DNA of 64,000 nt from IMG/VR virus record IMGVR_UViG_3300001782_000005, positions 213,132 through 277,131 of that record; one strand, written 5' to 3'. The translations under genes and the position numbers were made by a program. The stretch is from a virus. Each line of letters opens with the position of its first letter. Positions within the stretch are counted from its first letter, which is position 1. A model generated the notes under the pieces. The model had not been told where the DNA came from and did not search any database. It was given only the letters and a program-made list of their open reading frames with translations. Shown here in pieces: positions 4,563 through 62,747 of this stretch.

Positions 4563-4565
4563 AGG

Positions 4566-4868: not shown

Positions 4869-4903
4869 AAATAATAACCTCCTTTCCAAAATGTTTTATC
4901 TTA

Positions 4904-4919: not shown

Positions 4920-4942
4920 GCAGGAGGTTTTTTATATAACCA

Positions 4943-4984: not shown

Positions 4985-5003
4985 GAAAGTGAGAAATGGT
5001 GAC

Positions 5004-6167: not shown

Positions 6168-6180
6168 AACACTTCTCCTT

Positions 6181-32123: not shown

Positions 32124-33098
32124 ATGGCGAAAAGTGGAGAACTCACAAACAAGTCTTTGGCAAAAAGAATTGATAAATTTATAGATAACCGAATTTTAGT
32201 TGTTGGTGATATAATAGTAGATGAATTTATATGGGGTCATGTCAAAAGAGTTTCCCCCGAAGCTCCAGTCCCAATAGTTAATGTTGAAAGGCGATCCATG
32301 ATGCTCGGAGGCGCCGGAAACGTAGTACATAACATTATTTCTTTGGGGGGAAATGCTACAATCTGTGGAGTAATCGGGAGTGATTCTACAGGATGGAAGT
32401 TACGAGAAATGCTTATAAGCATAAGCAGCCCTACCGACTATATTATAATAGATGAAGGAAGACCAACTACTGTAAAAACTAGAGTAGTAGCTCACTCTCA
32501 GCAAGTTGTTCGAGTCGACCTGGAAGATACAAAACCTATTAGCTCAGAATATACCAAGAAAATTCTAGATGCAATTACTGACCAATTACCAATACTACAC
32601 GCTATTATAATTGCTGATTATGGAAAGGGTGTTGTTACTCAAGAGCTTATGGACGGAATTCGCTCAATTATACCTAATGATCTTATTTTAGCAGTAGATC
32701 CTAAGGTACAGAATATAGAATTATATAAAGGGGCCACACTAATTACTCCTAATTCTTATGAAGCTAAACTTATGGCAAATACAGATACTATAGATGAAGC
32801 TGGTCGATTACTACTCGATAAACTTAATTGTAAGACAGTATTAATAACACGTGGGGAAAAGGGAATGACCCTTTTTGAAGATAATCAAATTATCCAAATA
32901 CCTACAATAGCAAGAAAGGTTTTTGATGTATCTGGAGCGGGTGATACTGTAATTAGTACCTTTACTCTATCGTTAGTCTCTGGACTAAACTCAAAGCAGG
33001 CAGCAATACTTGCAAATGCTGCAGCCGGTTTGGTGGTTGCAGAGGTTGGTACTGCTGCTATATCAGCAACTAGATTAAAACAATTTTTATTGGAGTAA
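32124..33098 (+). CDS. hldA: HldE kinase-domain homologue (heptose 7-phosphate kinase, PfkB fold)
   Basis: 324 residues, the length of the N-terminal kinase half of HldE/RfaE. Visible are VVGDIIVDEFIWGHVKRVSPEAPVP, LGGAGNV, ADYGKGV and the anion-hole/catalytic VSGAGDTVISTF near the C-terminus, all standard for D-glycero-beta-D-manno-heptose-7-phosphate kinases. The partner nucleotidyltransferase half is a separate gene at 42991. Together they would make ADP- or related NDP-heptose from host sedoheptulose-derived heptose phosphate. Start ATG with GGAGG 10 bases upstream. Confidence 0.88.
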   Translation: MAKSGELTNKSLAKRIDKFIDNRILVVGDIIVDEFIWGHVKRVSPEAPVPIVNVERRSMMLGGAGNVVHNIISLGGNATICGVIGSDSTGWKLREMLISISSPTDYIIIDEGRPTTVKTRVVAHSQQVVRVDLEDTKPISSEYTKKILDAITDQLPILHAIIIADYGKGVVTQELMDGIRSIIPNDLILAVDPKVQNIELYKGATLITPNSYEAKLMANTDTIDEAGRLLLDKLNCKTVLITRGEKGMTLFEDNQIIQIPTIARKVFDVSGAGDTVISTFTLSLVSGLNSKQAAILANAAAGLVVAEVGTAAISATRLKQFLLE

Positions 33099-33141: not shown

Positions 33142-33642
33142 ATGCTGAACGATCAAGAAAAGAGAAGTCCGAAGATGGTGATAATGTGCGGACTACCGAA
33201 GAGCGGGAAATCGACAATAGTGGACCGAGAATTGCGGGAGTACCAAGTCATTTGTGGTGATGATATTAGACTTGCACTTGGAGTTGAATTTGATCCAAGA
33301 CTAGAAGAATTTGTGTGGGGTACATTTAATACAATGGTAAGAGCTAGTCTAATTAGAGGATTAGATGTAGTTCTTGATGGAACACATACAACAAGATTTA
33401 GAAGAGAAAGAGTTATTAATTTAGGGAAAGAATATGGAGCAGATATAACAATCATCCATGTAAAAACTCCATATGAAACTTGTATCAAAAGAGCAATCGA
33501 ATCAGACTTTCCACTAGCTGTCATGGAAAGGATGCGAGCTAATCTAGAGCTTGAACCTCCATCGGAAGAAGAAGGTGTAGAAGTAGTTGAGAAGAGTGTT
33601 GAAATTATTCACGGAGCTGTTGTAATAACTGGATACAATTAA
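33142..33642 (+). CDS. P-loop kinase of the AAA_33/PseT-kinase type
   Basis: 166 residues. Walker A GLPKSGKS at about 18-25, a CGDDIR strand, LDGTHTTRFRRE at about 80-90 (the Thr/Arg region of polynucleotide-kinase-like enzymes) and a lid helix ERMRANLE. Substrate may be a nucleic-acid 5' end or a small metabolite. An overlapping frame from ATG 33102 exists but looks less gene-like. Confidence 0.75.
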   Translation: MLNDQEKRSPKMVIMCGLPKSGKSTIVDRELREYQVICGDDIRLALGVEFDPRLEEFVWGTFNTMVRASLIRGLDVVLDGTHTTRFRRERVINLGKEYGADITIIHVKTPYETCIKRAIESDFPLAVMERMRANLELEPPSEEEGVEVVEKSVEIIHGAVVITGYN

Positions 33643-33659
33643 TTAATTAGAGGATTATA

Positions 33660-33995
33660 ATGGTATATTGGATTACAGGTAGATCTGGGGCTGGTAAAAC
33701 AACTTTAGCAAAGCGTATTGCAAAACAAACAAATGGAATTATTTTAGATGGAGATAAAATAAGGGAATATTTTCCCTCTGATTTTACAGACGAGGGAAGA
33801 GAAAACAATATAATGCTTATAGCAAAATTTGCTACGTTATTAGAGGAACAGGGGTTTACAGTTGTAGTCGCTTGTGTTAGCCCAAAAAGAGAATGGAGGA
33901 GGAAGGCACAATCATTACTTAACGAATGTCTTGAAATTTGCCTTCCCTTTGGAGAATTATGGGAAGGAACTGACTATGAAGAACCAGAATATTAA
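33660..33995 (+). CDS. Adenylyl-sulfate kinase-like protein (short)
   Basis: 111 residues. VYWITGRSGAGKTTLA (Walker A), LDGDKIREYF, ENNIMLIAKFATLLEEQGFTVVVACVSPKREWR and CLEICLPF follow the order of APS kinase (CysC), which makes PAPS, the sulfate donor of sulfotransferases. It is shorter than typical CysC (about 170-200), ending soon after the R-x-x-R region, so activity is uncertain. Directly followed by three sulfotransferase-like genes and a fourth at 37036. Confidence 0.75.
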   Translation: MVYWITGRSGAGKTTLAKRIAKQTNGIILDGDKIREYFPSDFTDEGRENNIMLIAKFATLLEEQGFTVVVACVSPKREWRRKAQSLLNECLEICLPFGELWEGTDYEEPEY

Positions 33996-34647
33996 AGTAG
34001 TAATTGCACCGTGGGGTGGTCATGCGACATCCCATATCCGTAGATTCATGGATGCGTATATGCGACCTGATGTGGTTCTTGGTGCTAATGGTGACATATG
34101 TCATATGCCAAAACCGACCATGCAAAAAGCATGGAAACATCGTACAGGAACCGATCTTGATATGAGTATCACTCTTAATGACAATTTAGTAAGATTTATT
34201 CATAACTCAAAAAAGCCAATTTTATTGAGTGGCGGAGTTTCCAAATTTAGTCCGTTTCTAACAATAAACTCAGTTAAAGCAATGTGTATTGTACGCAACC
34301 CTGTATATGCTTATTGTTCAATGTATAGTCGAAGGCATCCAGAAAAAGCTGAACCTTTTGGGGGAATAGATACAAAAGAATTAGCTATTTGGTATACAAC
34401 TAGATGGAATAATATCGTGTATGACTTTCTTGAATCAGGAAATCCTATTATCAGGTTTGAGCATTGGACTGATGATATGAAGCGCCAAGACGTTGGCCAA
34501 TTTAGAAAACTAATAAATTCTATAGATCATAGGAGAGCATCTACTAAAAAACCAATAAGTAAAGAAATAGAAGATTTAGTTATTAAAAGAACCAGAGAAT
34601 TATATGGAGAAATTAATAAATTTCATAAGCGCCTAAGAGGGAGATAA
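33976..34647 (+). CDS. Sulfotransferase-like protein 1
   Basis: 223 residues from ATG 33976 (GGGAAGGAA upstream), overlapping the APS-kinase gene by 20 bases. APWGGHATSHIRRF near the N-terminus takes the place of the PAPS 5'-phosphosulfate loop; CIVRNPVYAYCSMYSRR matches the 3'-phosphate-binding R-x-P-x5-S segment. A P-loop-like Gly-rich motif is present but atypical. Probably transfers sulfate from PAPS to a glycan or protein. Confidence 0.62.
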   Translation: MKNQNIKVVIAPWGGHATSHIRRFMDAYMRPDVVLGANGDICHMPKPTMQKAWKHRTGTDLDMSITLNDNLVRFIHNSKKPILLSGGVSKFSPFLTINSVKAMCIVRNPVYAYCSMYSRRHPEKAEPFGGIDTKELAIWYTTRWNNIVYDFLESGNPIIRFEHWTDDMKRQDVGQFRKLINSIDHRRASTKKPISKEIEDLVIKRTRELYGEINKFHKRLRGR

Positions 34648-34649
34648 TA

Positions 34650-35345
34650 TTGGGAGTAAAGATATTAGTAGTTGGTTTTCCAAGGAGTGGAACTACCCTT
34701 ACATACAGAGTTTGTAAGAAACATCCCCAAGTGGCGGGCATGTTTAATGAAGAACATATTCTAAGAAGTAGATCTTTACCGGGATTTCGATTTGTGAATA
34801 AGCAGTATTTATATAATAGGTACCCGAAATTCAAACTTAATTATGGAGAAAAACTAATTTATGAGAAAGGAGTTTTGGGTAAAAGGCATATATCAAATGT
34901 TACTGTAGTTGACTATTGTAAACAGTGGAATAAAACATTTGGAAAAGATTCAAGAATAATTCAAATAGTGAGACACCCCTTTGATTCTTGGAATTCAATT
35001 ATAAGGTTTAAATATAGGAGTCGAAGAATAGAGAAAGAAATACCAAGAATGTTTGATCAGTATCTTAAATGTATACCTAATTATACACAAGAAATTTCAG
35101 AATTGAAGACATGCTTAACTATCAAGTACGAGAATTTAGTTTTAAATTTTAAAGAGATCACTGCAAATATATATAAGCACTGTAATCTAGATCCCTTTAA
35201 TTATAGCGAAGTTGTAAGGACAGGAAGAGCCTTTAACTACAAGAGAAATGGTTTTGGACTAAAGGTTGATTCAAGACTTAATAAAGTTATTGATGTATTC
35301 AATAGATTCGATGGACCAAAATATGAGTTAGGAGATTCATCTTGA
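34650..35345 (+). CDS. Sulfotransferase-like protein 2
   Basis: 231 residues, TTG start two bases after the previous stop with GAGGGAGA. Clear PAPS loop VGFPRSGTTLTYRV and a 3'-phosphate motif IVRHPFDSWNS (about 108-118), then KYENLVLNF, as in family-1/3 sulfotransferases. C-terminal Gly/Lys region (KRNGFGLK) could contact 3'-phosphate. Acceptor unknown. Confidence 0.8.
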   Translation: MGVKILVVGFPRSGTTLTYRVCKKHPQVAGMFNEEHILRSRSLPGFRFVNKQYLYNRYPKFKLNYGEKLIYEKGVLGKRHISNVTVVDYCKQWNKTFGKDSRIIQIVRHPFDSWNSIIRFKYRSRRIEKEIPRMFDQYLKCIPNYTQEISELKTCLTIKYENLVLNFKEITANIYKHCNLDPFNYSEVVRTGRAFNYKRNGFGLKVDSRLNKVIDVFNRFDGPKYELGDSS

Positions 35346-36130
35346 AATTTCCAGACTTTATAATAGCAGGTTTTATGAAATGTGGAACAACACAACTATT
35401 TCTAAATTTAAATAAACACCCTGACGTAACAATGTGCAAACCAGCAGGGCCAATAAGACCAGGAGTCAGTGGTGGTACAGAAATGAGATTCTGGGGTTTA
35501 AATAATTGGAAGAGAGGAGTCGACTGGTATAAAAGTAGATTTCAGGGTGATATTTGTGGTGAGAAAAGTCCAGATTATGCAGGTTATAAAAAGTGTATGA
35601 GACTTATGTCTCAACATTCTCCAGACACTAAGCTATTAATAGGTATTAGAAACCCAATTGATCGAGCATATTCACATTATCAGATGAATCTCCAGCAGAG
35701 AAAATTAAGTTGGCCATTTAGTCTTGATAATTGTAAAAGTCAACCTAGGGGAAAACTCTATTTACAGTTGGGTATGTATCATAAGCTACTTACAAATAAT
35801 GTTCTATTATTTTTCCCAAGAGAACAGATTTATATATACATTTGTGAGAGGATGAAAGTTAATTTAACTGAGGAGATGAAAAAGATATATAATTTTATTG
35901 GAGCTAAACTAATTGAATTGCCAACTGAGAGAATACCTACGTCTAAGAGGTATAATAAAAAGACAGATGATATGTACGAGGATAGTCAGGAAAAAGTATA
36001 TAAAGTTTGGTCAAGAAAATATGAACCTATAAAGAAAAAGGATAAAAGAGAGTTTAATGATTTTTATAAAGAACATAATGAAAAGTTATTTGACCTTCTA
36101 GGATACAGAATAGAGGAATGGGAGAATTAA
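35342..36130 (+). CDS. Sulfotransferase-like protein 3 (heparan/NDST-like)
   Basis: 262 residues, overlapping the previous stop by four bases. FIIAGFMKCGTTQLFLNLNKHPDV (PAPS loop with the Lys of glycosaminoglycan sulfotransferases), CGEKSPDYAG, LLIGIRNPIDRAYSHYQMN and the C-terminal tail KKDKREFNDFYKEHNEKLFDLLG are all typical of heparan-sulfate N/O-sulfotransferase-type enzymes. Likely acts on a polysaccharide. Confidence 0.85.
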   Translation: MKFPDFIIAGFMKCGTTQLFLNLNKHPDVTMCKPAGPIRPGVSGGTEMRFWGLNNWKRGVDWYKSRFQGDICGEKSPDYAGYKKCMRLMSQHSPDTKLLIGIRNPIDRAYSHYQMNLQQRKLSWPFSLDNCKSQPRGKLYLQLGMYHKLLTNNVLLFFPREQIYIYICERMKVNLTEEMKKIYNFIGAKLIELPTERIPTSKRYNKKTDDMYEDSQEKVYKVWSRKYEPIKKKDKREFNDFYKEHNEKLFDLLGYRIEEWEN

Positions 36131-36131
36131 T

Positions 36132-36503
36132 ATGGAAACAATGGCTAAAATTATGACCTTTATAAAAGATTTTGGGATTGTCATACTAGCAGTCATCATA
36201 GGTATTATATTCTTCAGCATGAGAACTGAAACGTCAGAAATGTTAAGAAATCAATTCGAATATAATATGAGGCAACAGGAGAATATATATAAGCTAGTTG
36301 ACAGTCTACAAAATTTGGCTAAAGCACAGCAAGATTTTGTGACCAAATTCGAACAAAGAAAAGAAGTGGTACAAGAAATAAAAGTTGACTTAGGTAGATC
36401 AATACGAACGCTTAACAGAAGTGTTAAGGAGCTAAAAAATGTTCAAGATCCTAAAGAATCCTATACTCTTCTTGCTAATTCTTGGAGTTGGAGTCCTAAC
36501 TAG
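36132..36503 (+). CDS. Membrane-anchored coiled-coil protein (possible inner-membrane spanin)
   Basis: 123 residues. One N-terminal membrane helix (IVILAVIIGIIFFSM), then an extended coiled coil (about 35-105). Its last 65 bases overlap, out of frame, the lipoprotein gene at 36439. Inner-membrane coiled coil plus overlapping lipoprotein is the usual spanin layout, so a lysis role is plausible. Confidence 0.55.
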   Translation: METMAKIMTFIKDFGIVILAVIIGIIFFSMRTETSEMLRNQFEYNMRQQENIYKLVDSLQNLAKAQQDFVTKFEQRKEVVQEIKVDLGRSIRTLNRSVKELKNVQDPKESYTLLANSWSWSPN

Positions 36504-37026
36504 TTGTGCAGGAGCACAAAAATTCGAACCTCCTGATGAATTTAAACCAATTGAAGTAGAGGAAAGATTTACTAAACCATTTAAACTTAGAATAGACAAA
36601 TTAGCTGAAATTTTGGAGAAGGTTCACAAGATGGATAAACCTGTTCCAATCTATCTTGTGAGAAAGGGGAATACTAGTGACTTTGATTGGGAAGGGGAAA
36701 TTCCCGATGATGCTCAGATAATCGGTTACCTTGTGAAAGAGCATAATAAGATAGTTGCTAAAATAGAGCAAGGTAAGATGATGACTGAGATTGCTGACCT
36801 TCTTGTACAAAGAGTTCAAGTTGAAGTAGAACTTTATAACTCAATGCTAGAACTAGTCAAACTCCAAGATGTTACCGTTCAACGATATAGAACTTTATGG
36901 ATAAATGCAGAGAATAGAGTCTTACAATTGGAGTATGAATTGAAGCAACAAAGAATAGAACATAAGGTTACACTTGGAGTTGTGGGAACTGTAGCGGTGG
37001 CAATAGCAGTAATATTAGCGTTATAG
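36439..37026 (+). CDS. Lipoprotein with C-terminal membrane helix (u-spanin-like)
   Basis: 195 residues. Signal with lipobox LTSCAG (Cys23), a long helical, charged periplasmic body (about 40-170) and a final membrane helix (VTLGVVGTVAVAIAVILAL). An outer-membrane lipoprotein tail joined to an inner-membrane anchor is the defining plan of unimolecular spanins (T1 gp11 type), which fuse inner and outer membranes at lysis. It is larger than most. Alternative: an o-spanin partner of the preceding gene. Confidence 0.6.
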   Translation: MFKILKNPILFLLILGVGVLTSCAGAQKFEPPDEFKPIEVEERFTKPFKLRIDKLAEILEKVHKMDKPVPIYLVRKGNTSDFDWEGEIPDDAQIIGYLVKEHNKIVAKIEQGKMMTEIADLLVQRVQVEVELYNSMLELVKLQDVTVQRYRTLWINAENRVLQLEYELKQQRIEHKVTLGVVGTVAVAIAVILAL

Positions 37027-37035
37027 GAGAATATA

Positions 37036-37764
37036 GTGAGTTATAATTTTATCTTTATTGTTGGTTGCTCTGGTTCAGGCACAACTATGATGCTTAGAAT
37101 TATGAGTACTCCCGGCAATGTATTAACTCTTGGAGGAAATTACAAACCAATAAAAGACCCTTTAATTAATGAGTTTAACGAGTTAACAAAACTAATGTGG
37201 GATCGTTTTGGTGATATAAAGCAGTATAAAGGAGCAAAGAAGCAGATAATTCCAACTTTAGATATGTTACTCAAAAAATATAATAGAAAACAATTTCTAT
37301 TATATAAGAGGTCTGCTCCTTTTGGAAAGGGAGATCGTTATACGCCAGACTTAAAGGATATGATTGAATTATTTGACAATTTGAAAATAGTTATAATGAC
37401 TAGAGATCCTATGATGTCTACATTATCATCTTTCCGAAGAAATTTTGGGACTAACCTTAGAAATACAGCCATTATCTGTAATGAGCAACTAACACTTTTA
37501 AATAATCAAGTATCAAATCTTGATCCGAAAATATATAGGGTTATACGATATGAAGATTATTGTTCAACTCCAAAGAAGCAAGGAATAGAAATAGCCAAGT
37601 TCACTGGATTACCTCAAGGTTGTATACTTACAGGAAATGTTAGACATAATGTTAAATTAGATACAGGTAATAGTGTGAATTTAACAGATGAGCAAAGAGA
37701 TTGGATAACCGAATTCTTTTCAAATAAAGAAGAAAGGTGGCCACTACTTATGAGGAGTATATAA
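37036..37764 (+). CDS. Sulfotransferase-like protein 4
   Basis: 242 residues; GTG start with TAGGAGAA upstream. FIVGCSGSGTTMMLRIM is a PAPS-type loop; IVIMTRDPMMSTLSSFRRN matches the 3'-phosphate motif; RVIRYEDYCSTP is the conserved strand of the family. Separated from the other three by the spanin-like pair but in the same direction. Acceptor unknown. Confidence 0.78.
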   Translation: MSYNFIFIVGCSGSGTTMMLRIMSTPGNVLTLGGNYKPIKDPLINEFNELTKLMWDRFGDIKQYKGAKKQIIPTLDMLLKKYNRKQFLLYKRSAPFGKGDRYTPDLKDMIELFDNLKIVIMTRDPMMSTLSSFRRNFGTNLRNTAIICNEQLTLLNNQVSNLDPKIYRVIRYEDYCSTPKKQGIEIAKFTGLPQGCILTGNVRHNVKLDTGNSVNLTDEQRDWITEFFSNKEERWPLLMRSI

Positions 37765-42682: not shown

Positions 42683-42998
42683 AAAGTTAGAGTCCGCCGG
42701 CCCCCTATGGGTTTCCCTCGGAGAATATAAATCAGGTGGAGACATAAGACTAAAGATGATAGGTCTAGACTATATGTTTGAGTGTGGTCTGTCAGCAAAA
42801 GAGGTTCTAATAAACGTATCAAAGACTATATGTACTGGTTGCCTTATAAATCCTACGTGTGGAGTGGTGTGTCCAGGATTCTTATTCACATACAGAGAAA
42901 TAGTAGAGTGGTTGAATAAGAATGAAGATAGACAAGTGAATGGTTTAGAAGTATTAGAGGTATTGATGGAAATTGCAGGAGATAAGAAACTTGAATGA
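42675..42998 (+). CDS. Miniprotein with SPASM-type motif, copy 5
   Basis: 107 residues, the longest of the family. CTGCLINPTCGVVC (C-x2-C-x5-C-x3-C) lies at about 54-67 after an extra N-terminal domain. Ends inside the start of the nucleotidyltransferase gene (overlap of eight bases). Confidence 0.6.
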   Translation: MDKKLESAGPLWVSLGEYKSGGDIRLKMIGLDYMFECGLSAKEVLINVSKTICTGCLINPTCGVVCPGFLFTYREIVEWLNKNEDRQVNGLEVLEVLMEIAGDKKLE

Positions 42999-43401
42999 CG
43001 AAAGAATATTTGTTTTCACAAATGGTTGTTTTGACATATTACATTGTGGTCATTTGAGGGTATTTCAGTATGCAAGAACCCTAGGTGACTATGTAATAGT
43101 CGGCCTCAATAGCGACCAGTCCGTCAGGGAGTTGAAAGGTCCAGGTCGTCCCATTATACCCCAAGACGAGAGAAAAGAGATGTTAGAGTCTATTAGGTTC
43201 GTTGATAAAGTCATCATATTTGATGAACTAACCCCACTGAAGTTGATAGAGGCCATACGACCTAACATTATAGTCAAGGGTGAAGATTGGAAGGATCGAG
43301 AAGTCGTGGGATCTCACATTGCAAAGGTTAAGTTTGTACCCATATTGAAGAGGTACTCCACAACGGAGATTGTAGAGAGGATTAGAGGAGTTGAAAAATA
43401 A
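42991..43401 (+). CDS. hldC: HldE nucleotidyltransferase-domain homologue
   Basis: 136 residues from TTG 42991 (AGGAG at 42978-42982). FTNGCFDILHCGHLRVF carries the HxGH of nucleotidyltransferases, GLNSDQSVRELKGPGRPI and EDWKDREVVG match the C-terminal half of HldE, which charges heptose 1-phosphate with ADP. ERIRG and the RYSTTEI end are typical. Ten kilobases from its kinase partner at 32124. Confidence 0.9.
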   Translation: MNDERIFVFTNGCFDILHCGHLRVFQYARTLGDYVIVGLNSDQSVRELKGPGRPIIPQDERKEMLESIRFVDKVIIFDELTPLKLIEAIRPNIIVKGEDWKDREVVGSHIAKVKFVPILKRYSTTEIVERIRGVEK

Positions 43402-46318: not shown

Positions 46319-46642
46319 ATGAATATGTCAGTAAAAGACTTCAGGTGGGAGTTTCAGGCATTAATCAAGAAGGTTGTCACTACAACTAAATATGACGTTG
46401 AAGTGGACTTGGGATTTAGGATAAAACATAAGATGAGGATTTCGTTGTTAGGTTGGTCTGAGATATCAAATGATGCAGTCGATTATGTTAGGGATAAGGT
46501 TGAGGGTAAGATTGTCATACTGAGACCAAGACATGCTGAAGTAGATGAGCAATATGTTGCAGATATAATACTCCTTGATGGTCGTGATCTAAAACTATTA
46601 ATTAGGGGTTGGGAGACTGGATATGATAAGGTTGGTACATAG
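46319..46642 (+). CDS. SNase-like protein
   Basis: 107 residues with TAGGAG upstream. KYDVEVDLGFRIKHKMRISLLGW recalls the beta-barrel of staphylococcal nuclease-like proteins (DGDT-x-x-V-x-DLGF...RL-x-G), followed by VEGKIVILRPRH and IILLDGRDLKLLIRGWE. The usual catalytic Asp/Arg pair is not clear, so it may be a binding rather than a cutting version. Confidence 0.52.
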   Translation: MNMSVKDFRWEFQALIKKVVTTTKYDVEVDLGFRIKHKMRISLLGWSEISNDAVDYVRDKVEGKIVILRPRHAEVDEQYVADIILLDGRDLKLLIRGWETGYDKVGT

Positions 46643-47600
46643 GATTATATTGACTGAACTATGTAATCAATCGTGCCCCCATTGCTTCAATGCAGACTTC
46701 CGGACTAAGGGTGTTATGGATGCAGATATGTGGATCAAGTTTATACAGGATAACACCGACTATATACGAGGTCATGAACTAAAGGTAATGGGTGGGGAGC
46801 CTACTCTGCATCCTAGATTTCTTGAGGTCGTTGAGGAATCACTTAATCACTATAGGACTATCTCTATATTCACTAATGGTTCTACGATGCATAAATATGC
46901 TTCTAATAGAATGCTGATGAAGAATCACTTTAGGGGTAGAGTAGACTATAAGATAAATGGTTACGTATTTGATCCTAATAAGTTCGAGGAGTATAAGGAA
47001 TATGTACACCAGATAGGTCTACACTGTGTTGTTCCTCTAGGAGATTCTGATCTATTTGTTAATAAGGTACTTGAATTTACATATTTGCACCCACAGGTTA
47101 TGATATTGCTCTCTCCCGATACTCAGGTTAATATATTTGACGAGTCTATACTAAAGGAATATAGAGAAGTATGGATTAATGTTATTACAGACATTGTGCC
47201 TGAACTTAGAAGGATGAATATACCCTTTGGTTATGACCATGTATTTCCTATATGCTTCTATACTCAAGAGATGATAGATATTCTACATACCTTTGATATG
47301 GATAGTCTATATAGAGAGAAGATATGTTGTTGTGGGGATTTGAATTTAGGGTTGATTGACTATAACTTTGATCTATACTATTGTAATCAGACAAGGATTA
47401 AGTTAGGATCTATTCTCAAAGATGATAATACTTTTAAGACGATGGACGAAATATTCAATATGATTCAATGTGCATCATCTATGAAAACTGAGTCTATCCT
47501 TGAGTTATCGGATAAGTGTAGATCATGTCATGTTGTAGCATCTTGTAAGACTGGTTGTTTTTATAACTCTCTTGTGGGGGGGTTAATGTGTCAAAGATAA
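46623..47600 (+). CDS. Radical SAM enzyme with SPASM-type C-terminus
   Basis: 325 residues. CNQSCPHC (Cys14, 18 and 21) binds the radical SAM cluster; KVMGGEPTLHP is the SAM-binding GGEP; FTNGS follows. C-terminal Cys: CCCGD, YYCNQT and finally DKCRSCHVVASCKTGC (C-x2-C-x5-C-x3-C), as in SPASM auxiliary clusters. Such enzymes usually modify peptides. The same last motif occurs in seven small neighbours. Overlaps both adjacent genes. Confidence 0.85.
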   Translation: MIRLVHRIILTELCNQSCPHCFNADFRTKGVMDADMWIKFIQDNTDYIRGHELKVMGGEPTLHPRFLEVVEESLNHYRTISIFTNGSTMHKYASNRMLMKNHFRGRVDYKINGYVFDPNKFEEYKEYVHQIGLHCVVPLGDSDLFVNKVLEFTYLHPQVMILLSPDTQVNIFDESILKEYREVWINVITDIVPELRRMNIPFGYDHVFPICFYTQEMIDILHTFDMDSLYREKICCCGDLNLGLIDYNFDLYYCNQTRIKLGSILKDDNTFKTMDEIFNMIQCASSMKTESILELSDKCRSCHVVASCKTGCFYNSLVGGLMCQR

Positions 47601-53767: not shown

Positions 53768-54730
53768 ATGGGATTTAAAATTGAAGACTATTGGACAATA
53801 TGGGGTTATCTGTACCAAAGGAGATTAGACCCTACCTACGATACGATTGACCTCGACAATAATACGAAAAATATAGCTGAATCTGAAAGGGGTGTTTCTG
53901 AGCAAGTTTTTGAGAGCACTCTTGATCAATCTGTCTTTAATTCAAATGATTATAAGATGTTAAGAACTTTTCTTATAGACTGGTATGCTACACTTAGGAC
54001 TGTTGGCACAACTGGAGCAACTGTATCTCAAGTATTCTCTATGCCGGATACTCACGTTCAGGAGTTGATTCAGTCGTTCGGATATGATGTACCAGTAGAT
54101 ATATTGACTTTTACAACTAAAGTAAATTTCTTTCTTGACCTTGTTAATCTGTATAAGGTTAAGGGAACCCCCAATGCTCTCTATCAAGTTTTAGCATATT
54201 ATGGTTTGAGTAACCTTGATATTGTTGAGTATGATGTGCAATATACTGAACCAGGGGATGCTCTAGGACCGGGTGAACTAGTTTTTAGAGGTAAATCTAC
54301 AAGGCAATTGGGGCCAGGTGAAATGCCCATACCATGGCCAGATGTTCCTTTTGATGAAATGATTTATCCAGATCCACATTGGTTATTGACTAAAGAAGAC
54401 GTTGAATATGCCCACCGAACTCAAGATATAAACCTTCCTTCAAGAAGTCCTTATTTTGGCATAAGACCAAGATTCTATATGTCTGAACTTTTCTTTATGA
54501 TAGCTGTCCTTGTAAGAATGGTTGAAAATCAGTATGACCTATGGGTTGCTACGGGTAGCGTTGAAGTAACTGACCCAATGTTCTCTCATATCTATGATGC
54601 TGCAGTCGAAAAATATGAGATGACCCTTCTGAATTATAATGTGTCTTTATTAGAATTGTATCTATCTTGTATATATGCCTTTAATAGGAGATACGGTCGA
54701 AGTGCTATCTATCCACCAACATGGCCATAA
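53768..54730 (+). CDS. Baseplate/tail-associated protein
   Basis: 320 residues. FFLDLVNLYKVKGTPNALYQVLAYYG is the motif seen in phage baseplate and tail-end proteins (K-G-T-P-x-A-x-x), with helical flanks and a Pro-rich middle. Followed, with a 56-base overlap, by the tailspike gene, a typical baseplate-spike pairing. Confidence 0.65.
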   Translation: MGFKIEDYWTIWGYLYQRRLDPTYDTIDLDNNTKNIAESERGVSEQVFESTLDQSVFNSNDYKMLRTFLIDWYATLRTVGTTGATVSQVFSMPDTHVQELIQSFGYDVPVDILTFTTKVNFFLDLVNLYKVKGTPNALYQVLAYYGLSNLDIVEYDVQYTEPGDALGPGELVFRGKSTRQLGPGEMPIPWPDVPFDEMIYPDPHWLLTKEDVEYAHRTQDINLPSRSPYFGIRPRFYMSELFFMIAVLVRMVENQYDLWVATGSVEVTDPMFSHIYDAAVEKYEMTLLNYNVSLLELYLSCIYAFNRRYGRSAIYPPTWP

Positions 54731-56087
54731 TCAGTATTCTAATCTATGGGGAGAAGATGGAGAACAGTGGAGTCCTCAAAGTTACCTACCTGATTTTTCT
54801 TATGCTGGTTACCACCATGGAGAAGAACCTCTACCAAAAATAAATCAGTGTGTAAGTATAGTGGATGATTTTGGAGCGAAAGGTGATGGTCGTGATAGTT
54901 CACAAGCATTTCTCGATGCTATAGAAGTAAATAGACCTATCTATATTCCTTCTGGTCGTTATAAGATTACTAAGATTATTGAAAGTAAAGTATCACTCAT
55001 AGGAGAGGACCCAGACAAGACGGTTTTATATTTCCCCAACCACCTGACTGATATTAAACCAGATTGGAAAATTACTCCTGAAATGAGAATTTCTAATTAC
55101 TCATGGTCTGGAGGTTTTATCTGGATTAAGGGAAATTTTGAAAAGAGATTTCTTACATCTATTATTGCAGAAGCTAAGCGTGGAGAGGACTCTTTAATAG
55201 TTTCTTCAGCAGATGAGTTAAGGGTTGGCCAAAGGATTGAAATAAAATTTAGAAGAAAAAGTAATTCTTTAGTACAATATCTATACTCAGGCGATTCTGG
55301 TGATACTGATAATTGGAAAGATATAAAAGTCTCGTTAGTTTGTAGAATTACTGAGGTTAAAGGTAACCTAATTATATTTGATCGCCCCCTACGTTTCGAT
55401 GTAAAATTGGAATGGTTACCTGAAGTTTATCAATTTAATTCAAGTGTGACCAAAATTAGTATAGAGAATCTATGTTTTGAATTTCCAAATACGTTGTACG
55501 ATGGTCATTTTTCTGAACTTGGTTATAATGCTTTAGCTTTAAGTAATGTCTCAGACTGTTGGGTAAGAAATATAAAGATTGTGAATGCTGATAGTGGAAT
55601 ATTTATTGATAGAAGTAAATTCTGTACTATCCAAAATATTATTTTTGAATCAAACCGGAAAGGTAGAGATAATTGTGTTGGTCATCATGGTATATATCTA
55701 CAGGGAGATGATAATCTTTTTACTAATTTTGAATTTAAAGTTCAATTTATACATGATATCTCAGTAAGTAATTGCTCAGGTAATGTCTGTTGTGATGGTA
55801 GAGGTATAAACTTGTGTTTTGATCATCATAAAAAAGCTCCTTATGAGAACCTGTTTACTAATATTGATGCTGGATTAGGAAGTCGTATGTGGATATCTGG
55901 TGGAGGAGAAAAACTCGGGAGACACTGTGGAGCACGAGGTACCTTCTGGAATATACGATCTAAAAATCCTCAGAAATATCCTATAGATTTTGGTCCCAAT
56001 TCAGTAAATCTAGTAGCCATAAAATCCGAAAGTATTTATCCACAGAATATTTATAGGTCTCAATTAGCTAGAAGATTAAGGAGATAA
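54675..56087 (+). CDS. Tailspike with pectate-lyase-like beta-helix
   Basis: 470 residues. CVSIVDDFGAKGDGRDSSQAFLDAI then PIYIPSGRYKITK is the standard entry to a right-handed beta-helix (pectate lyase 3 family) of phage depolymerases; many short NxxI/V rungs follow. A specific active site cannot be assigned. Its start lies within the baseplate-like gene, without a strong ribosome site, so coupled reinitiation is likely. Confidence 0.8.
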   Translation: MPLIGDTVEVLSIHQHGHNQYSNLWGEDGEQWSPQSYLPDFSYAGYHHGEEPLPKINQCVSIVDDFGAKGDGRDSSQAFLDAIEVNRPIYIPSGRYKITKIIESKVSLIGEDPDKTVLYFPNHLTDIKPDWKITPEMRISNYSWSGGFIWIKGNFEKRFLTSIIAEAKRGEDSLIVSSADELRVGQRIEIKFRRKSNSLVQYLYSGDSGDTDNWKDIKVSLVCRITEVKGNLIIFDRPLRFDVKLEWLPEVYQFNSSVTKISIENLCFEFPNTLYDGHFSELGYNALALSNVSDCWVRNIKIVNADSGIFIDRSKFCTIQNIIFESNRKGRDNCVGHHGIYLQGDDNLFTNFEFKVQFIHDISVSNCSGNVCCDGRGINLCFDHHKKAPYENLFTNIDAGLGSRMWISGGGEKLGRHCGARGTFWNIRSKNPQKYPIDFGPNSVNLVAIKSESIYPQNIYRSQLARRLRR

Positions 56088-56089
56088 AT

Positions 56090-57007
56090 TTGTGGGGTTT
56101 GACTTCATTCTTTAATCCTATTGGATATAAGAACAAGGTTAAGAATTATAGGAAGTTTAGGTTATCTAGTCAAAAGCAAGGGTTGAAACTTTTATGTGTT
56201 GAGTTATCATTCGGAGGTAGGGAACCTGAGTTAACTAAAGATGATGCTGATATTTTGATCCAACTAAGATCTAATACGATATTATGGCAAAAAGAGCGTT
56301 TACTAAATATTGGTCTAAGAAATCTTCCGGATGATTGTACTAAGATTATCTGGATTGACTGTGACATTATTTTTCAGAATGATAATTGGGTTGAGGAAGT
56401 ATATAAATCTTTGGATAAGTATTTTGTTATTCAACCTTTTTCATTCGTTATTAGATTACCAAAGGATGGAATAATAAGTTCTGAGGATTTGCCTTTTGGA
56501 TTAGAAGAGGGTCAAAAAATTCATAGTATGGGTTACGGTATGCGAGATTCTGATAGGGAAAAGCTCTTTGATTTTTTTATACATGGTCATTCTGGGTTTG
56601 CCTGGGCTGCCAGAAGAGAGATTTTTAATAAGCACGGTTTTTATGATAGGTTAATTCTTGGTTCTGGTGACTTGATGATGGCCCATACTTTCTACGGTCA
56701 TAAATTTAATTATATTAGGAGTTTGTCTTCTGAACCAATGCAATTAGATCAAGATGTGTGGTTTGAGGAAATTTATAATATAGTTAAAAGCAATGTTTAT
56801 TTTGTTCCTGGTCTAATTTTTCATCTATGGCATGGAGATAAAATTAATAAGCTTCATGATGAGAGATTTGAGATTCTTGTCTCGGAGAATTTTGACCCCA
56901 GAAAAGACATTAAACTAGATAGTAATGATTGCTGGACTTGGGCAACTAACAAACCAAAATTGCACCAATGGTGTGAGAAATATTTTAGTTTTAGAAAAGA
57001 AGAGTAA
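56090..57007 (+). CDS. Glycosyltransferase, GT2/GTA-like
   Basis: 305 residues, TTG start after GGAGATAAAT. IIWIDCDIIFQNDNWVEEV is a GT-A DxD-type strand (DCD) of retaining/inverting transferases; SGFAWAARREIF and GSGDLMMAHTFYGH are typical acceptor-side motifs. NDP-sugar dependent; acceptor unknown. First of a glycan-enzyme run to the window end. Confidence 0.78.
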   Translation: MWGLTSFFNPIGYKNKVKNYRKFRLSSQKQGLKLLCVELSFGGREPELTKDDADILIQLRSNTILWQKERLLNIGLRNLPDDCTKIIWIDCDIIFQNDNWVEEVYKSLDKYFVIQPFSFVIRLPKDGIISSEDLPFGLEEGQKIHSMGYGMRDSDREKLFDFFIHGHSGFAWAARREIFNKHGFYDRLILGSGDLMMAHTFYGHKFNYIRSLSSEPMQLDQDVWFEEIYNIVKSNVYFVPGLIFHLWHGDKINKLHDERFEILVSENFDPRKDIKLDSNDCWTWATNKPKLHQWCEKYFSFRKEE

Positions 57008-57930
57008 TGAAATCTATTCGATTAGAAGCTACAACAATTTGTCAACTAAAGTGTCCCTCTTGTCCGACATCTTCAGGAGATGTGAGTAGGTATCTTGGAT
57101 CTGGACATCTTCGAATTGAGGATTTTAAAAATCTCGTTGATAGTAACTCTTGGATTTCGAATATTGAACTTTCTAATTGGGGGGAGATTTTTCTCAACCC
57201 GGACTTGATACCTATTTTTTACCACGCTTATAAGAGAGATGTAGGTTTGAGTGCTGATAATGGTGTAAATCTAAATACTGTTAGTCGAGATATTCTTGAA
57301 GCAATGATTGTATATAAATTTCGAAGTATGAAATGTTCTATTGATGGAGCTACACCAGGGACTTATAGTATCTATCGACGCAGAGGAGATTTTAATGCTG
57401 TGATAGAGAATATTCAAACTATCAATTATTTTAAGAAGCAGTACAATTCTAGATATCCACAGTTAACTTGGCAATTTATAATGTTTGATCATAATATACA
57501 CGAACTTGAAAGTGCAGGGGAAATGGCTAAAAAGTTAGGTATGAGTTTTTTCCCTAAACTTTCTTGGGAAAATTTTTATGTTAAAGATTCTATAGCTAAA
57601 CCTGAGAGAGCTCCTACACGAGAAGAATTTAAGAACAGATTTGGTAAGCATTATATTCGAAACCTCTGTACTCAACTATGGACAAAACCTCAAATTAATT
57701 ATGATGGAAAAGTCCTTGGTTGCTGTGTTCAGTATTGGGGAGATTTTGGTAATGCTTTTAAAGAAGGTCTCAGAGAGAGTTTGAATAATGAGAAGATTGA
57801 ATATGCTCGTCAGATGCTCTTGGGAGAAGAAGATAGCCGTCAAGACATTGCTTGTAGTTCCTGTGAGGTTTACCTGGAGATGAAAGAATCTCAGAATTGG
57901 ATAAAGATGAGTGAGGTCCATGAAATTTAA
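57007..57930 (+). CDS. Radical SAM enzyme 2
   Basis: 307 residues. CQLKCPSCP (C-x3-C-x2-C) near the N-terminus, then SNWGEIFLNPDL in place of GGEP, and C-terminal CCVQYWG and CSSC that may hold an auxiliary cluster. Overlaps the previous stop. Different subtype from 46623; its place among glycosyltransferases suggests it acts on a sugar or glycoconjugate. Confidence 0.8.
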   Translation: MKSIRLEATTICQLKCPSCPTSSGDVSRYLGSGHLRIEDFKNLVDSNSWISNIELSNWGEIFLNPDLIPIFYHAYKRDVGLSADNGVNLNTVSRDILEAMIVYKFRSMKCSIDGATPGTYSIYRRRGDFNAVIENIQTINYFKKQYNSRYPQLTWQFIMFDHNIHELESAGEMAKKLGMSFFPKLSWENFYVKDSIAKPERAPTREEFKNRFGKHYIRNLCTQLWTKPQINYDGKVLGCCVQYWGDFGNAFKEGLRESLNNEKIEYARQMLLGEEDSRQDIACSSCEVYLEMKESQNWIKMSEVHEI

Positions 57931-58950: not shown

Positions 58951-60381
58951 ATGGGTGAAGTTATTGATATGGAACAGAAGGAAGATGGAATCGTTGAGAT
59001 GAAGGAAAAGCAACCTGAATCCGGTTTTACAATTCAGGATAAAAGGAAACTTGCTCCGCACCCTCAACCTGAACCCCCTAAACAGTTTAAGCAAAAGAGT
59101 GTAGGGAAGGGTAAGAAAGAGAAGATTTGTATTGTCACAAACTTCATGGAGTTTAATCCTCGCTACTCATTAACTGGAATTGTTAAAGACCACATTCAAG
59201 CACTCACGAAAAATGGGCACAAAGTTGGCCTTATTGTCAACGAAAAATATAGGGATCAGGATTTTAAGGGTGTTGAGATGCTCAAAGTCCTTCCTTTTGC
59301 CCATTTAAAAGATTACCACAATATAAATGACCTAAAAGAAGAACACAAAGTTACGATTGATAAGACAGAACAGGTACTTAAAAAAGTGTTTACTAATACA
59401 GATGGAGATGGAGATGTTTATGAATTAGCTTTCTGCCATGATATAAATTTCCAAGGTTGGTTCCTACCTTACAAATTAGGTCTCGAAAAAGCATCTTTTC
59501 AACTTCCCCATGTTAGATGGCTTCATTGGGTTCATAGTATTCCAAGTGGTATGCGCGAATATTGGAAAATTCCAAGCAAGAAGCATAAGATCATATTTCC
59601 TAATGAAACTGATAGACTACGAGTTGCTGAACAATTTAGAGGGGAGTTGGATGATGTTCGAATTGTTCACCATATAAAGGATATGAGAACCTTTATGGAT
59701 TTTGATCCAATTGCTTGTAGGATGATAGATCAATATGACTTAATGAATGCTTCTATTATTCAAGTATATCCGGCTTCAGTTGATCGTCTTCATGCTAAAG
59801 GTGTTGATTATGTTATAAGAATCTTCTCTAACCTAAAGAAGCAGGGAGAAAGTGTTAGACTTATTATTCTAAACCAGTGGTGTAATGTTGACAAACATCG
59901 TCAAACCGTTGAGCAATATTGCCAGACTGCTAGGGGTCTTGGTTTAGAACCAGATAAAGAATTAATATTTAGTTCACGTTTTGAAACTCCCCGCTTTGAA
60001 ACAGGTGTTGATGCTAATATTGTGAAAGATTTATTTTCTCTTTCGAACCTCTTTATTTTTCCAACGAGAGAAGAAGCATTTGGACTTGTTCTTCCTGAGG
60101 CTGCTTTAAGTGGTGGAGTGCTATTAGTATTGAATAGATCTCTACAAATGCAGTCAGAGGTTGCAGGTTTAAATGCCCTGTACTTTGATTTTGGAAGTTT
60201 TACCCATAATTTTTCAATACCGGGTGATAAATATTACGAAGATATAGCAACTATTATTAGAGGTAGAATGAGACAAGAATACTCACTTATGGCAAAGACA
60301 TTTATGAGACGGATGTATAATATGGATAGAATTTATAAGGAGGAGATGTTGCCCATTATTGGGGAGAGCAGAAATTGGTAG
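58951..60381 (+). CDS. Glycosyltransferase family 4-like protein
   Basis: 476 residues. N-terminal ~65 residues are charged/Pro-rich and extra; then a GT-B fold: ICIVTNFMEFNPRYSLTGIVKDH, and the donor site NLFIFPTREEAFGLVLPEA. Retaining GT4 enzymes use NDP-hexoses. The extra N-terminus is unusual. Confidence 0.82.
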   Translation: MGEVIDMEQKEDGIVEMKEKQPESGFTIQDKRKLAPHPQPEPPKQFKQKSVGKGKKEKICIVTNFMEFNPRYSLTGIVKDHIQALTKNGHKVGLIVNEKYRDQDFKGVEMLKVLPFAHLKDYHNINDLKEEHKVTIDKTEQVLKKVFTNTDGDGDVYELAFCHDINFQGWFLPYKLGLEKASFQLPHVRWLHWVHSIPSGMREYWKIPSKKHKIIFPNETDRLRVAEQFRGELDDVRIVHHIKDMRTFMDFDPIACRMIDQYDLMNASIIQVYPASVDRLHAKGVDYVIRIFSNLKKQGESVRLIILNQWCNVDKHRQTVEQYCQTARGLGLEPDKELIFSSRFETPRFETGVDANIVKDLFSLSNLFIFPTREEAFGLVLPEAALSGGVLLVLNRSLQMQSEVAGLNALYFDFGSFTHNFSIPGDKYYEDIATIIRGRMRQEYSLMAKTFMRRMYNMDRIYKEEMLPIIGESRNW

Positions 60382-61175
60382 ATATAGTAATAAAATCATT
60401 TAATGGTATAGGTGATTGTCTATTTATGACTCCTACTCTGAGAAAAATTAAGGAGGCATATCCAGATAGGAAGATAATTGTAAATACTAATTATCCTCTC
60501 TTATTAGAGAATAATCCTTTTATTGATGAAGTTAATACAAGAGGTAAAGAGGGAGTTTTTCTGGGTTATGATGATCCTATTCATAGAAAGTGGCCCAGAA
60601 AACATCACATACTAAGAGATTGGGAAATAGTTTGTCAGCAATATGGAATTCAGACTGAAATACCTATTTTGAAACCTGAGATCTATTTTAAATTTAAGCA
60701 TGGAGATAGAAAGGGTAATATTGGAGTTCAGGTTATACATAAGAATCACTGGCATGGAAAGAAGAATTGGGGGAAATTTTCTGAGTTATCTGAGGAATCT
60801 GGGTTTCAACCTATTCCAAAAGTTGGAGGAGTACGGGAAATTGTTGAATTTCTTACTTCGTGTAGGGCTATTATATGTGCAGAAGGCGGAATATCTCATT
60901 TATGTAGGGCATTAGATATTCCGTGTGTTGTAGTTTATGGAGGTTTTGCTGACCCGGAGTGGAATGGTTATAAAGAACAAATTAATATAACAAATAGGAA
61001 ATACTGCTCCTATTGCTATAATCCTGGTCCGTGTATTAATCCCGTTGAGAAAGAGTGTATGCAGGAAATTAAAATCACTACTGTAAAGAAAGCTGTTATG
61101 CTAGCCTATTACCACTTAAAGTCTATTCAGAGCGATACTGGGGTGGTTTTAAATATCCATCATTCACTTGTATAG
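60375..61175 (+). CDS. GT9-like heptosyltransferase
   Basis: 266 residues, TTG start (GGGGAGAG upstream), overlapping the previous gene by seven bases. SFNGIGDCLFMTPTLRKIKEAYP is the GT9 entry motif (GIGD), and CAEGGISHLCRAL-x-IPCVV matches the donor-binding strand. GT9 enzymes use ADP-heptose, which fits the phage hldA/hldC pair. Shorter than typical (about 340), with a Cys-rich C-terminus (CSYCYNPGPC). Confidence 0.82.
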   Translation: MVDIVIKSFNGIGDCLFMTPTLRKIKEAYPDRKIIVNTNYPLLLENNPFIDEVNTRGKEGVFLGYDDPIHRKWPRKHHILRDWEIVCQQYGIQTEIPILKPEIYFKFKHGDRKGNIGVQVIHKNHWHGKKNWGKFSELSEESGFQPIPKVGGVREIVEFLTSCRAIICAEGGISHLCRALDIPCVVVYGGFADPEWNGYKEQINITNRKYCSYCYNPGPCINPVEKECMQEIKITTVKKAVMLAYYHLKSIQSDTGVVLNIHHSLV

Positions 61176-61206
61176 GTGATTTAAGAACTCACAGCAGGGA
61201 AGCAAA

Positions 61207-61794
61207 ATGCGGCAAAATTTAACCGATTTTATATCAGAAGAGAATATTTTTGAAACTATTAAGGAAAGGTTTGGTAGCAAAATTAATAATGAGGCTACCG
61301 CAATTGACAAAATTGAGATTAGTCGGATACTAAAAGACTTCATTGAGATAGTAAAACCAAAGAAGATTCTGGAGATTGGAACTTATCAAGGATTATCTGC
61401 AGCCTACTTAAGTTTATTTGCGGAAGTAATAACTGTAGATTTGCATTTTCAACCCATTTCGAAAGAGATATGGGATTATCTAGGGGTTTCTGAAAGAATT
61501 AGATTTTTCGTTTCTCCAGAGCTAGATCGAATAAAGAAATTTGTTGAGAATCTCGATTTTGATTGTGCTTTTATTGATGGTGAACATACATATAAAGCAG
61601 TATCTCATGATTATGAACTTGTTAGGAAATGTGGGAATGTGATTTTTCACGACTATGCATGGCATTTAATAAAGGAGAATAAGGAGGATAGTTTTCCAGG
61701 TGTAACAAAATTTGTGAATTCTTTACCTGAAGATGAAGTTTTGAAATCTCCGCCTTTTGCTTTATGGAGGGATGAAAATGCCAGAAGAGAATAA
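61207..61794 (+). CDS. SAM-dependent methyltransferase 1
   Basis: 195 residues. ILEIGTYQGLSAAYLS is motif I of class I methyltransferases; ITVDLHFQP and DCAFIDGEHTY match the Methyltransf_24 type that also acts on glycans. No ribosome site stronger than AGGGAAG. Probably O-methylates a sugar. Confidence 0.82.
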   Translation: MRQNLTDFISEENIFETIKERFGSKINNEATAIDKIEISRILKDFIEIVKPKKILEIGTYQGLSAAYLSLFAEVITVDLHFQPISKEIWDYLGVSERIRFFVSPELDRIKKFVENLDFDCAFIDGEHTYKAVSHDYELVRKCGNVIFHDYAWHLIKENKEDSFPGVTKFVNSLPEDEVLKSPPFALWRDENARRE

Positions 61795-62212
61795 TAATAA
61801 AAAAGTTTGTCTTATTGATAACGTCAAAAAGAAATGTGTTGAACTTTGGAAATTAATTGTTGGAATTGGTGTTATAATAGGTTTGATAGCTGGTTTTTAT
61901 GGTCTTGATGCTGTGGTTGCAACAGAAAAGGATTTAGATATCCACAAAAAGGATATTATTGGTAAACTTGAGAACCTTGAGACAGAGGTTATATCTAGTT
62001 TACAGCAGTTTCAGAAACAGCAAGATTTACAGTTCTGGAACCAGAGGTATCAAGAATATTTGGATAGGGAAACAGATTTCAGATATAAATTGAAAAGAGA
62101 TCCAAATAATCAGGATTTGAAAGCTCAATATGAATATTGGAAGCAGAAAAGAATTGAAGCGCAAAAGAAGATTGATGAGTTGACGAAACCGACACCACCA
62201 ACTGGAGGGTAA
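61778..62212 (+). CDS. Membrane-anchored coiled-coil protein
   Basis: 144 residues from ATG 61778 (GGAGGGATG). One membrane helix (LIVGIGVIIGLIAGFYGL), then a long coiled coil (about 50-135) and a Pro-rich end. The plan matches i-spanins. Sits oddly between two methyltransferases. Confidence 0.55.
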   Translation: MPEENNNKKVCLIDNVKKKCVELWKLIVGIGVIIGLIAGFYGLDAVVATEKDLDIHKKDIIGKLENLETEVISSLQQFQKQQDLQFWNQRYQEYLDRETDFRYKLKRDPNNQDLKAQYEYWKQKRIEAQKKIDELTKPTPPTGG

Positions 62213-62213
62213 T

Positions 62214-62747
62214 TTGAAGTTGAATCTTGGTAGTGGTATAATGTTGAAGAAAGAATTTGTTAATTATGATATGAAGATACGTAAACCTGAAATGGATGTA
62301 CCTAGAGTGGTTGGAATGATTGAGTATTTACCGTTCAAAGAAAATAGTTTTGATGAAGTATTGAGTTCTCATGTAATCGAACATTTTCAACCTGAGCAAA
62401 GTATACAAATGCTTAAAGATATATACTATGTTCTTAAACCCGGAGGAATTTTAATAATTGAAGGTCCAGATATCTTAGGTGCTTATTGGTATTATGTTGG
62501 TTGTGACTGTGGTAATAGATGGGGTGGCCGGAAAGAACCAGATGTTAAGAGCTTAATTGATTGTATCTTTGCAAACGTTCACAGGTATACTCGTGGAGAA
62601 GAGTGGACACATAAATCTGGTTGGACTGGGTGTATGGTTGCTCAACATATGGCTGAGATTGGATTCTATATTAGGCATGTTGGAAAAGGTTGGACACATG
62701 GAATGGGCCGTAGAGATTTTAGAGTAGAAGGGATTAAAAGTGGTTGA
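62214..62747 (+). CDS. SAM-dependent methyltransferase 2
   Basis: 177 residues, TTG start (GGAGGG upstream). LNLGSGIMLK is motif I; VVGMIEYLPFKENSFDEVLSSHVIEHF is the Methyltransf_11 core; VLKPGGILIIEGPDI follows. Acceptor unknown. Confidence 0.82.
   Translation: MKLNLGSGIMLKKEFVNYDMKIRKPEMDVPRVVGMIEYLPFKENSFDEVLSSHVIEHFQPEQSIQMLKDIYYVLKPGGILIIEGPDILGAYWYYVGCDCGNRWGGRKEPDVKSLIDCIFANVHRYTRGEEWTHKSGWTGCMVAQHMAEIGFYIRHVGKGWTHGMGRRDFRVEGIKSG

Follow-up and report, generated by a model that had tools for sequence, protein, structure and literature searches.

The DNA analysed here, a 64,000-nucleotide window (positions 213,132 to 277,131) of the virus record IMGVR_UViG_3300001782_000005, from a giant phage, carries on its plus strand a block of genes that opens with mini-CysC (33660..33995; 111 aa), a lid-less APS-kinase-like protein recognized by Pfam APS_kinase. 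It is followed by ST1 (33976..34647; 223 aa), a probable diverged sulfotransferase linked to ST4 by a colinear profile match; ST2 (34650..35345; 231 aa), a sulfotransferase of Pfam Sulfotransfer_3; ST3 (35342..36130; 262 aa), a glycan-type sulfotransferase of Pfam Sulfotransfer_1; and, further on, ST4 (37036..37764; 242 aa), again of Sulfotransfer_3. These five reading frames are all open, each with a plausible ribosome-binding site. The original prediction of a sulfation block holds for gene content, but the block is interrupted: the genes at 36132..36503 and 36439..37026 (both on the plus strand) split ST3 from ST4. The first encodes a 123-aa protein with an N-terminal membrane helix and a coiled coil, placed by synteny and by a weak PHROG match to an Rz-like spanin (0.008); the second, overlapping it, encodes a putative 195-aa lipoprotein with the lipobox LTSC. 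The two are possibly an inner-membrane and an outer-membrane spanin, respectively. Immediately 5' of mini-CysC, and co-directional with it, lies a small P-loop kinase (33142..33642, plus strand; AAA_33, polynucleotide-kinase-like). Promoter and terminator scans returned results at or near chance level, and PADLOC gave only short P-loop matches, thus no sign of a defence system. An HldE kinase was dropped as a candidate member, being absent at that place in a sister phage.

The whole block is kept in that sister phage, at 58-90% identity, with no stops and with dN/dS ratios (0.09-0.27) that indicate purifying selection: 80% and 0.09 for ST1, 70% and 0.12 for ST2, 67% and 0.12 for ST3, and 58% and 0.27 for ST4. 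The coiled-coil membrane protein and the lipoprotein (70% identity) are syntenic there, occupying the same place between ST3 and ST4, and the upstream P-loop kinase is 86% identical.

Against Pfam APS_kinase, mini-CysC scores 65.8 bits (E=5.8e-18; cut-off 21.1) over profile positions 4-101 of 152 only, and it falls below the equivalog cut-off of NCBIfam apsK (TIGR00455; 65.3 versus 138.7). The best Foldseek matches of its AlphaFold model (pLDDT 89) are APS kinases. The P-loop and LDGD motif are conserved among mini-CysC sequences (K13 in 54/54, D30 in 53/54, D32 in 52/54), and both phosphosulfate-binding arginines are kept at equivalent alignment positions (R35 in 54/54, R47 in 53/54). Lys13, Asp30, Asp32, Arg35 and Arg47 are the counterparts of Lys456, Asp478, Asp480, Arg483 and Arg497, which bind substrate in Mycobacterium tuberculosis CysC, with Arg483 and Arg497 contacting the phosphosulfate of APS (PMC4373884). 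What is gone is the lid: its ~30 residues are absent from 14 mini-CysC aligned with full-length enzymes, and in 54 sequences an invariant motif, the conserved C-terminal GxLWxGTxYExP, comes immediately where the lid would be. Lost along with it are the equivalents of Arg559, Lys562 and Phe576, assigned in the M. tuberculosis enzyme to ATP, the transition state and the APS adenine, and lid closure is essential for the activity of that enzyme (PMC4373884). The earlier doubt as to whether so short an APS kinase is catalytic was therefore justified, the lid being missing in the whole short family; invariant Trp101 might replace the lost phenylalanine. Known APS kinases (PF01583, TIGR00455; Archaeoglobus fulgidus 7yq0, M. 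tuberculosis) share the fold, P-loop, LDGD and two arginines, but they measure ~170-200 aa as against 111-147 aa for most mini-CysC, which differ further in lacking the lid, in having their own GxLWxGTxYExP and in occurring, within this analysis, on viral contigs only. Mini-CysC appears to be a shortened and so far virus-only version of a PAPS-making enzyme.

The sulfotransferase-like genes at 34650, 35342 and 37036 are clear, all scoring above the Pfam cut-off: ST2 at 59.0 bits (1e-15), ST3 at 49.6 bits (4.5e-13) and ST4 at 46.8 bits (5.6e-12). The fourth that had been predicted, at 33976, is less secure. ST1 has no match in Pfam, PHROG, NCBIfam or PDB sequences, its PAPS loop is degenerate (PWGGHATS), and its model, built from two sequences, has an unusably low pLDDT of 32. 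It is a probable diverged sulfotransferase because its profile aligns colinearly with that of ST4 over the full length (E=1e-3, against 0.13 for the reversed control) and because it has a 3'-phosphate motif. Three clear PAPS loops had been claimed as well, and two are canonical, the 5'-PSB loops PRSGTT of ST2 and MKCGTT of ST3 each having the basic residue, whereas SGSGTT of ST4 lacks the usual R/K. The 3'-phosphate motif is present in all four, as proposed: RNPVYAYCS in ST1, RHPFDSWNS in ST2, RNPIDRAYS in ST3 and RDPMMSTLSS, retained, in ST4. ST3 resembles heparan-sulfate 3-O- and N-sulfotransferases, matching them at K13, E74, R103 and S111; it aligns over its full length, at low identity, with 3-OST-3A1 (1t8t) and NDST1 (PF00685/PF13469), sharing the PAPS-loop Lys, the catalytic Glu (EKSPDY/EKTPSY) and the 3'-PB Arg/Ser. 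Unlike these carbohydrate sulfotransferases, the phage block has several diverged paralogues. Relatives of ST1 come from three records only, near-identical or sister; ST2 has relatives in other jumbo phages, and among 50,697 phage records none was found for ST2, ST3 or two siphovirus sulfotransferases.

The mini-CysC form is present in 55 IMG/VR records, nearly all metagenomic, while two scans of 84,980 prokaryote genomes for its signature motif, the sole feature tested, yielded no CysC relative. At 42 of 54 loci a sulfotransferase gene lies within 1.5 kb, on the same strand every time, upstream of mini-CysC in 24 and downstream in 18. By sequence cluster, 21 of 26 have an adjacent sulfotransferase and 25 of 26 have one anywhere in the record. 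Among dereplicated related phages, 12 of 14 with CysC carry a sulfotransferase, as against 5 of 29 without (Fisher p=2.6e-5); the 81-kb record G013 has CysC and no detected sulfotransferase. The similar clusters sought in other phages exist, the pairing recurring across unrelated phages, and together with the dN/dS values this recurrence leads us to reject a chance gene cluster. What is new is the mini-CysC form and its pairing with sulfotransferases in diverse phages.

The named-phage matches of mini-CysC that we examined are full-length CysC, several apparently in bacterial DNA. The exception, Stenotrophomonas phage DLP_6, has a diverged CysC fusion that lacks the GxLWxGT motif, and its annotation shows no sulfotransferase closer than 6 kb. 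Both there and at a second locus, L117, CysC is fused to an NMN-adenylyltransferase-like domain. The L117 arrangement recalls PAPS synthase, a fusion of ATP sulfurylase and APS kinase, in that mini-CysC is joined to an HxGH adenylyltransferase with a sulfotransferase adjoining; the L117 adenylyltransferase is, however, NMNAT-like, whereas PAPS synthase carries ATP sulfurylase.

A module of CysC and sulfotransferases is strongly supported by conservation in the sister phage and by recurrent pairing; gene content, conservation, purifying selection and pairing are all shown. That mini-CysC carries out the APS kinase step, which molecules accept the sulfate and how the phage gains from it are inferred. 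Our preferred reading, to which we give a probability of about 0.68, is that the phage encodes in this block a sulfation module in which mini-CysC makes PAPS and ST1-ST4 transfer its sulfate, probably to glycans. Mini-CysC would phosphorylate host-made APS to PAPS, possibly touched by a sulfotransferase that covers the lid-less active site, and ST1-ST4 would sulfate several different sites or a number of different acceptors. That APS would have to come from the host, as first proposed, is supported by the 277-kb record, in which neither ATP sulfurylase nor CysD/PAPS reductase was found.

A glycan acceptor is plausible because ST3 is nearest to heparan-sulfate sulfotransferases and because sulfotransferases of related phages sit in glycan clusters. 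In siphovirus contigs the CysC-sulfotransferase pair is found in the stretch separating head from tail genes, where its neighbours are glycosyltransferase-like reading frames and a methyltransferase, and in jumbo relatives lacking CysC the sulfotransferases are located in sugar clusters. Glycans of the virion or envelope are the most likely acceptors. Those on the tail fibres, spikes or capsid of the virion, which the phage's own glycan genes would make, rank first, and those of the host envelope second. Receptor masking, superinfection exclusion and escape from glycan-based defence, as first suggested, would be conceivable benefits. A real but lesser chance attaches to the module chiefly modifying host envelope glycans or lipids, for receptor masking or superinfection exclusion, rather than the virion. 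Two LPS-type genes near the block speak for an envelope target, one encoding a heptose-7-phosphate kinase and the other a protein that resembles a heptose-1-phosphate adenylyltransferase; the heptose kinase, however, is missing beside the block in the sister phage, and the siphovirus pair is located among virion structural genes. This is a variant of the preferred explanation, and the two are compatible.

It is rather doubtful that mini-CysC is a P-loop kinase no longer acting on APS, whether it now phosphorylates some other small molecule or binds PAP/PAPS as a regulator or subunit of the sulfotransferase, with the sulfotransferases drawing on host PAPS. The loss of the lid throughout the family would fit such a role, as would the NMN-adenylyltransferase-like fusions and the phages that have sulfotransferases and no CysC, in which host PAPS can suffice. 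Set against this, the arginines that bind the phosphosulfate and the Asp that serves as catalytic base are conserved throughout the family, and APS kinases head the structural matches. A bolder version of the sulfation module, which we rate as rather unlikely, would make mini-CysC a virus-specific APS kinase that needs no lid because its sulfotransferase closes the active site, the L117 fusion with its NMNAT-like domain a compact and unorthodox PAPS synthase working from sulfate, and phage 'cysC' generally a gene for sulfating virions or glycans; PAPS would then be made and spent inside one complex.

Phage cysC is commonly annotated as a gene of assimilatory sulfate reduction, its standard interpretation (PMC9529941, PMC10914622), and is widely treated as part of sulfur cycling; a 2025 review enters it as 'Not validated' (PMC12713726). 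That mini-CysC is an auxiliary metabolic gene supplying host cysteine, with sulfotransferases nearby only incidentally, is improbable: this phage has no assimilatory-reduction partners, PAPS reductase (PF01507) occurs in 1 of 16 CysC records as against sulfotransferase in 13, and the adjacency described above survives a swapped gene order between lineages. Such surroundings speak rather for a role in providing PAPS to sulfation, and the recurrence of the pair in many unrelated phages suggests that phage cysC serves sulfation, not sulfur assimilation. The viral cysC reported from the Challenger Deep (PMC9529941) and from COBRA/Rotsee (PMC10914622), ~109-135 residues modelled as APS kinase and forming a virus-specific clade, agrees with mini-CysC in length; both reports assign it to assimilatory reduction, and neither mentions sulfotransferases. 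Conversely, sulfotransferase family proteins like those of this phage are reported from OM43 phages (PMC10580990), where their role is called unclear, and from glacier phages (PMC8290583), singly and with no partner CysC described. The recurrent pairing joins these two puzzles and offers one testable answer, PAPS for sulfation. If correct, sulfation would stand beside glycosylation as a modification of phage surface or envelope, and biogeochemical claims drawn from short viral cysC would need revision; in some lake samples, viral cysC is reported to be transcribed more than host cysC (PMC10914622).

The window, the final 64 kb of a 277,131-bp IMG/VR virus record, comes from a large phage whose major capsid protein is of the T4 type (Gp23). 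Downstream of its tail-fibre region lies a co-directional block in which the predicted CysC-like and sulfotransferase-like genes were confirmed: a small, polynucleotide-kinase-like P-loop kinase (33142-33642) directly precedes a CysC-like protein of 111 aa (33660-33995; Pfam 5.8e-18), followed by the sulfotransferase-like genes ST1 (33976), ST2 (34650; 1e-15), ST3 (35342; 4.5e-13) and ST4 (37036; 5.6e-12), all four Pfam matches lying above curated cut-offs and ST1 matching no family in the Pfam search. Several genes overlap or almost abut, an arrangement like that of a translationally coupled operon. Between ST3 and ST4 sit genes for a coiled-coil membrane protein (36132) and an overlapping lipoprotein (36439), a spanin-pair-like unit (36132-37026) that is syntenic in the sister phage. 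The record holds one CysC copy and no Sulfotransfer_3 match besides those of the block; the predicted lack of ATP sulfurylase was borne out over all 277,131 bp by a family search, which found no PAPS-reductase/CysD family protein either.

Block order is retained in two near-identical records and in one clear sister (L014, a 113-kb contig), whose copies contain no stop codons and are 90% (CysC), 86% (small kinase), 80% (ST1), 70% (ST2), 67% (ST3) and 58% (ST4) identical, with dN/dS of 0.09-0.13 for all but ST4 (0.27). Given this order, identity, low dN/dS and freedom from stops, the block is not a chance assembly, and the conservation on which the original prediction had staked itself is present.

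The sulfotransferases are not equally secure. The closest solved structures to ST3 are heparan sulfate 3-O-sulfotransferase 3A1 (5.7e-14) and N-deacetylase/N-sulfotransferase 1; its catalytic glutamate motif (E74 in EKSPDY) corresponds to EKTPSY of 3-OST, and the PAPS-loop lysine (K13) and both 3'-phosphate-binding residues (R103, S111) are there. These are the catalytic residues of the heparan-sulfate-type family. ST2 carries PRSGTT and RHPFDSWNS, and ST4 carries SGSGTT and RDPMMSTLSS; three PAPS loops had been thought clear, and those of ST2 and ST3 have a basic residue, that of ST4 none. All four genes had been called sulfotransferase-like, which Pfam upholds for ST2-ST4; ST1 is a probable sulfotransferase, since its profile is colinear with that of ST4 across 161 columns (E=1e-3, against 0.13 for the reversed control).

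The CysC-like protein belongs to a short form, mini-CysC, that aligns colinearly with full-length CysC across the P-loop, LDGD, APS-binding arginines and SP strand, after which it has no lid and ends in GELWEGTDYEEP. An AlphaFold model from 14 sequences (pLDDT 89) finds its best structural matches among APS kinases. In Mycobacterium tuberculosis CysC, Lys456, Asp478/Asp480, Arg483 and Arg497 bind ATP/Mg and APS, and closing of the lid (552-581), whose Arg559 contacts ATP, Lys562 the transition state and Phe576 the APS adenine, is essential (PMC4373884). The expected active site is kept in part: mini-CysC is constrained in its substrate-binding core, whose residues persist in 52-54 of 54 sequences, whereas the lid, with the equivalents of Arg559, Lys562 and Phe576, is gone; in the new C-terminal motif, Gly98, Trp101 and Tyr106 are invariant (54/54). 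With core kept and lid lost, mini-CysC looks like an APS kinase, a working role as one being putative, and the missing lid makes the kinase step uncertain.

Similar clusters do occur in other phages. Scans of viral contigs recovered 16 and later 55 mini-CysC loci; the signature motif, as distinct from every conceivable mini-CysC, brought up no relative in either of two scans of 84,980 prokaryote genomes. Local profiles place a sulfotransferase within 1.5 kb in 42/54 loci, always on the same strand, 24 upstream and 18 downstream. Among 26 clusters at 60% identity, 21 have an adjoining sulfotransferase and 25 one somewhere in the record; the remaining cluster (L116) has a neighbouring ORF with a sulfotransferase-like motif only. 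The partners are not all orthologous: they include ST2-ST4 of the window, a GAARSGTS-type family in siphovirus contigs, strong Sulfotransfer_3 proteins (contigs L030/L098), Sulfotransfer_2 (L031/L032) and another sulfotransferase (L016). In a dereplicated control, sulfotransferases occur in 5/29 records of capsid-sharing relatives without CysC, versus 12/14 records with CysC (Fisher p=2.6e-5, optimistic because the records share ancestry); swapped gene order and differing partner families are stronger evidence for partnership than this p-value.

Viral cysC has been reported as assimilatory sulfate reduction (PMC9529941, PMC10914622), with nine cysC/cysH genes from the Challenger Deep, modelled CysC spanning 109-135 residues (PMC9529941), and 62 cysC in freshwater phages, which in some samples were expressed more than host cysC (PMC10914622); a 2025 review enters cysC as not validated (PMC12713726). 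PAPS reductase is found in 1 of 16 CysC records. Phage sulfotransferases have been noted singly, their function called unclear (PMC10580990). In a search of open-licence literature, the one paper to bring phage, cysC and sulfotransferase together concerned cyanobacterial photosynthesis; as subscription papers and preprints lie outside that scope, we claim no priority for the link. The pairing in other phages strengthens the sulfation reading and suggests that it extends beyond the window phage.

Mini-CysC also has other neighbours. In another phage group (L034, L035, L037, L101; about 4400-6750) it adjoins a dCMP-deaminase-like gene and, in three of the four, also a gene resembling sugar epimerases close to the capsid gene; only one of these records was found to have a sulfotransferase, at another site. 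Contig L117 (6001-6717) encodes a fusion of a mini-CysC-like kinase with an HxGH adenylyltransferase that is NMNAT-like, followed by a sulfotransferase, and Stenotrophomonas phage DLP_6 (KU682439.2, 129043-129774) encodes such a fusion, possibly a compact PAPS synthase or else an NAD-type enzyme.

Glycans are the favoured sulfate acceptors, with the virion the likelier site, because of indirect evidence from gene context in three settings. In L031/L032, the CysC-sulfotransferase pair has as neighbours glycosyltransferase-like ORFs (one tested, without a Pfam match), Methyltransf_24 and a weakly MptE-like protein, in the region that separates the capsid genes from those for head-tail proteins; in jumbo relatives without CysC, sulfotransferases adjoin genes that read as UDP-GlcNAc-2-epimerase-like, glycosyltransferase-like and sugar-epimerase-like; and the window phage carries additional glycan-type genes (57-63 kb) plus an ADP-heptose gene pair. 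The latter, predicted to supply two ADP-heptose steps, comprises HldE domain I, a heptose-7-phosphate kinase (32124-33098; TIGR02198, above cut-off) that the sister lacks next to its block, together with an adenylyltransferase like HldE domain II (42973-43401; TIGR02199, 8.6e-47, below cut-off). Radical SAM proteins with SPASM-type domains lie at 46623-47600 and 57007-57930, the second adjoining glycosyltransferases and methyltransferases (58951-62747) in a second surface-modification cluster, beside which a pectate-lyase-like (RHGA_epim) protein (54675-56087) is a possible tailspike depolymerase.
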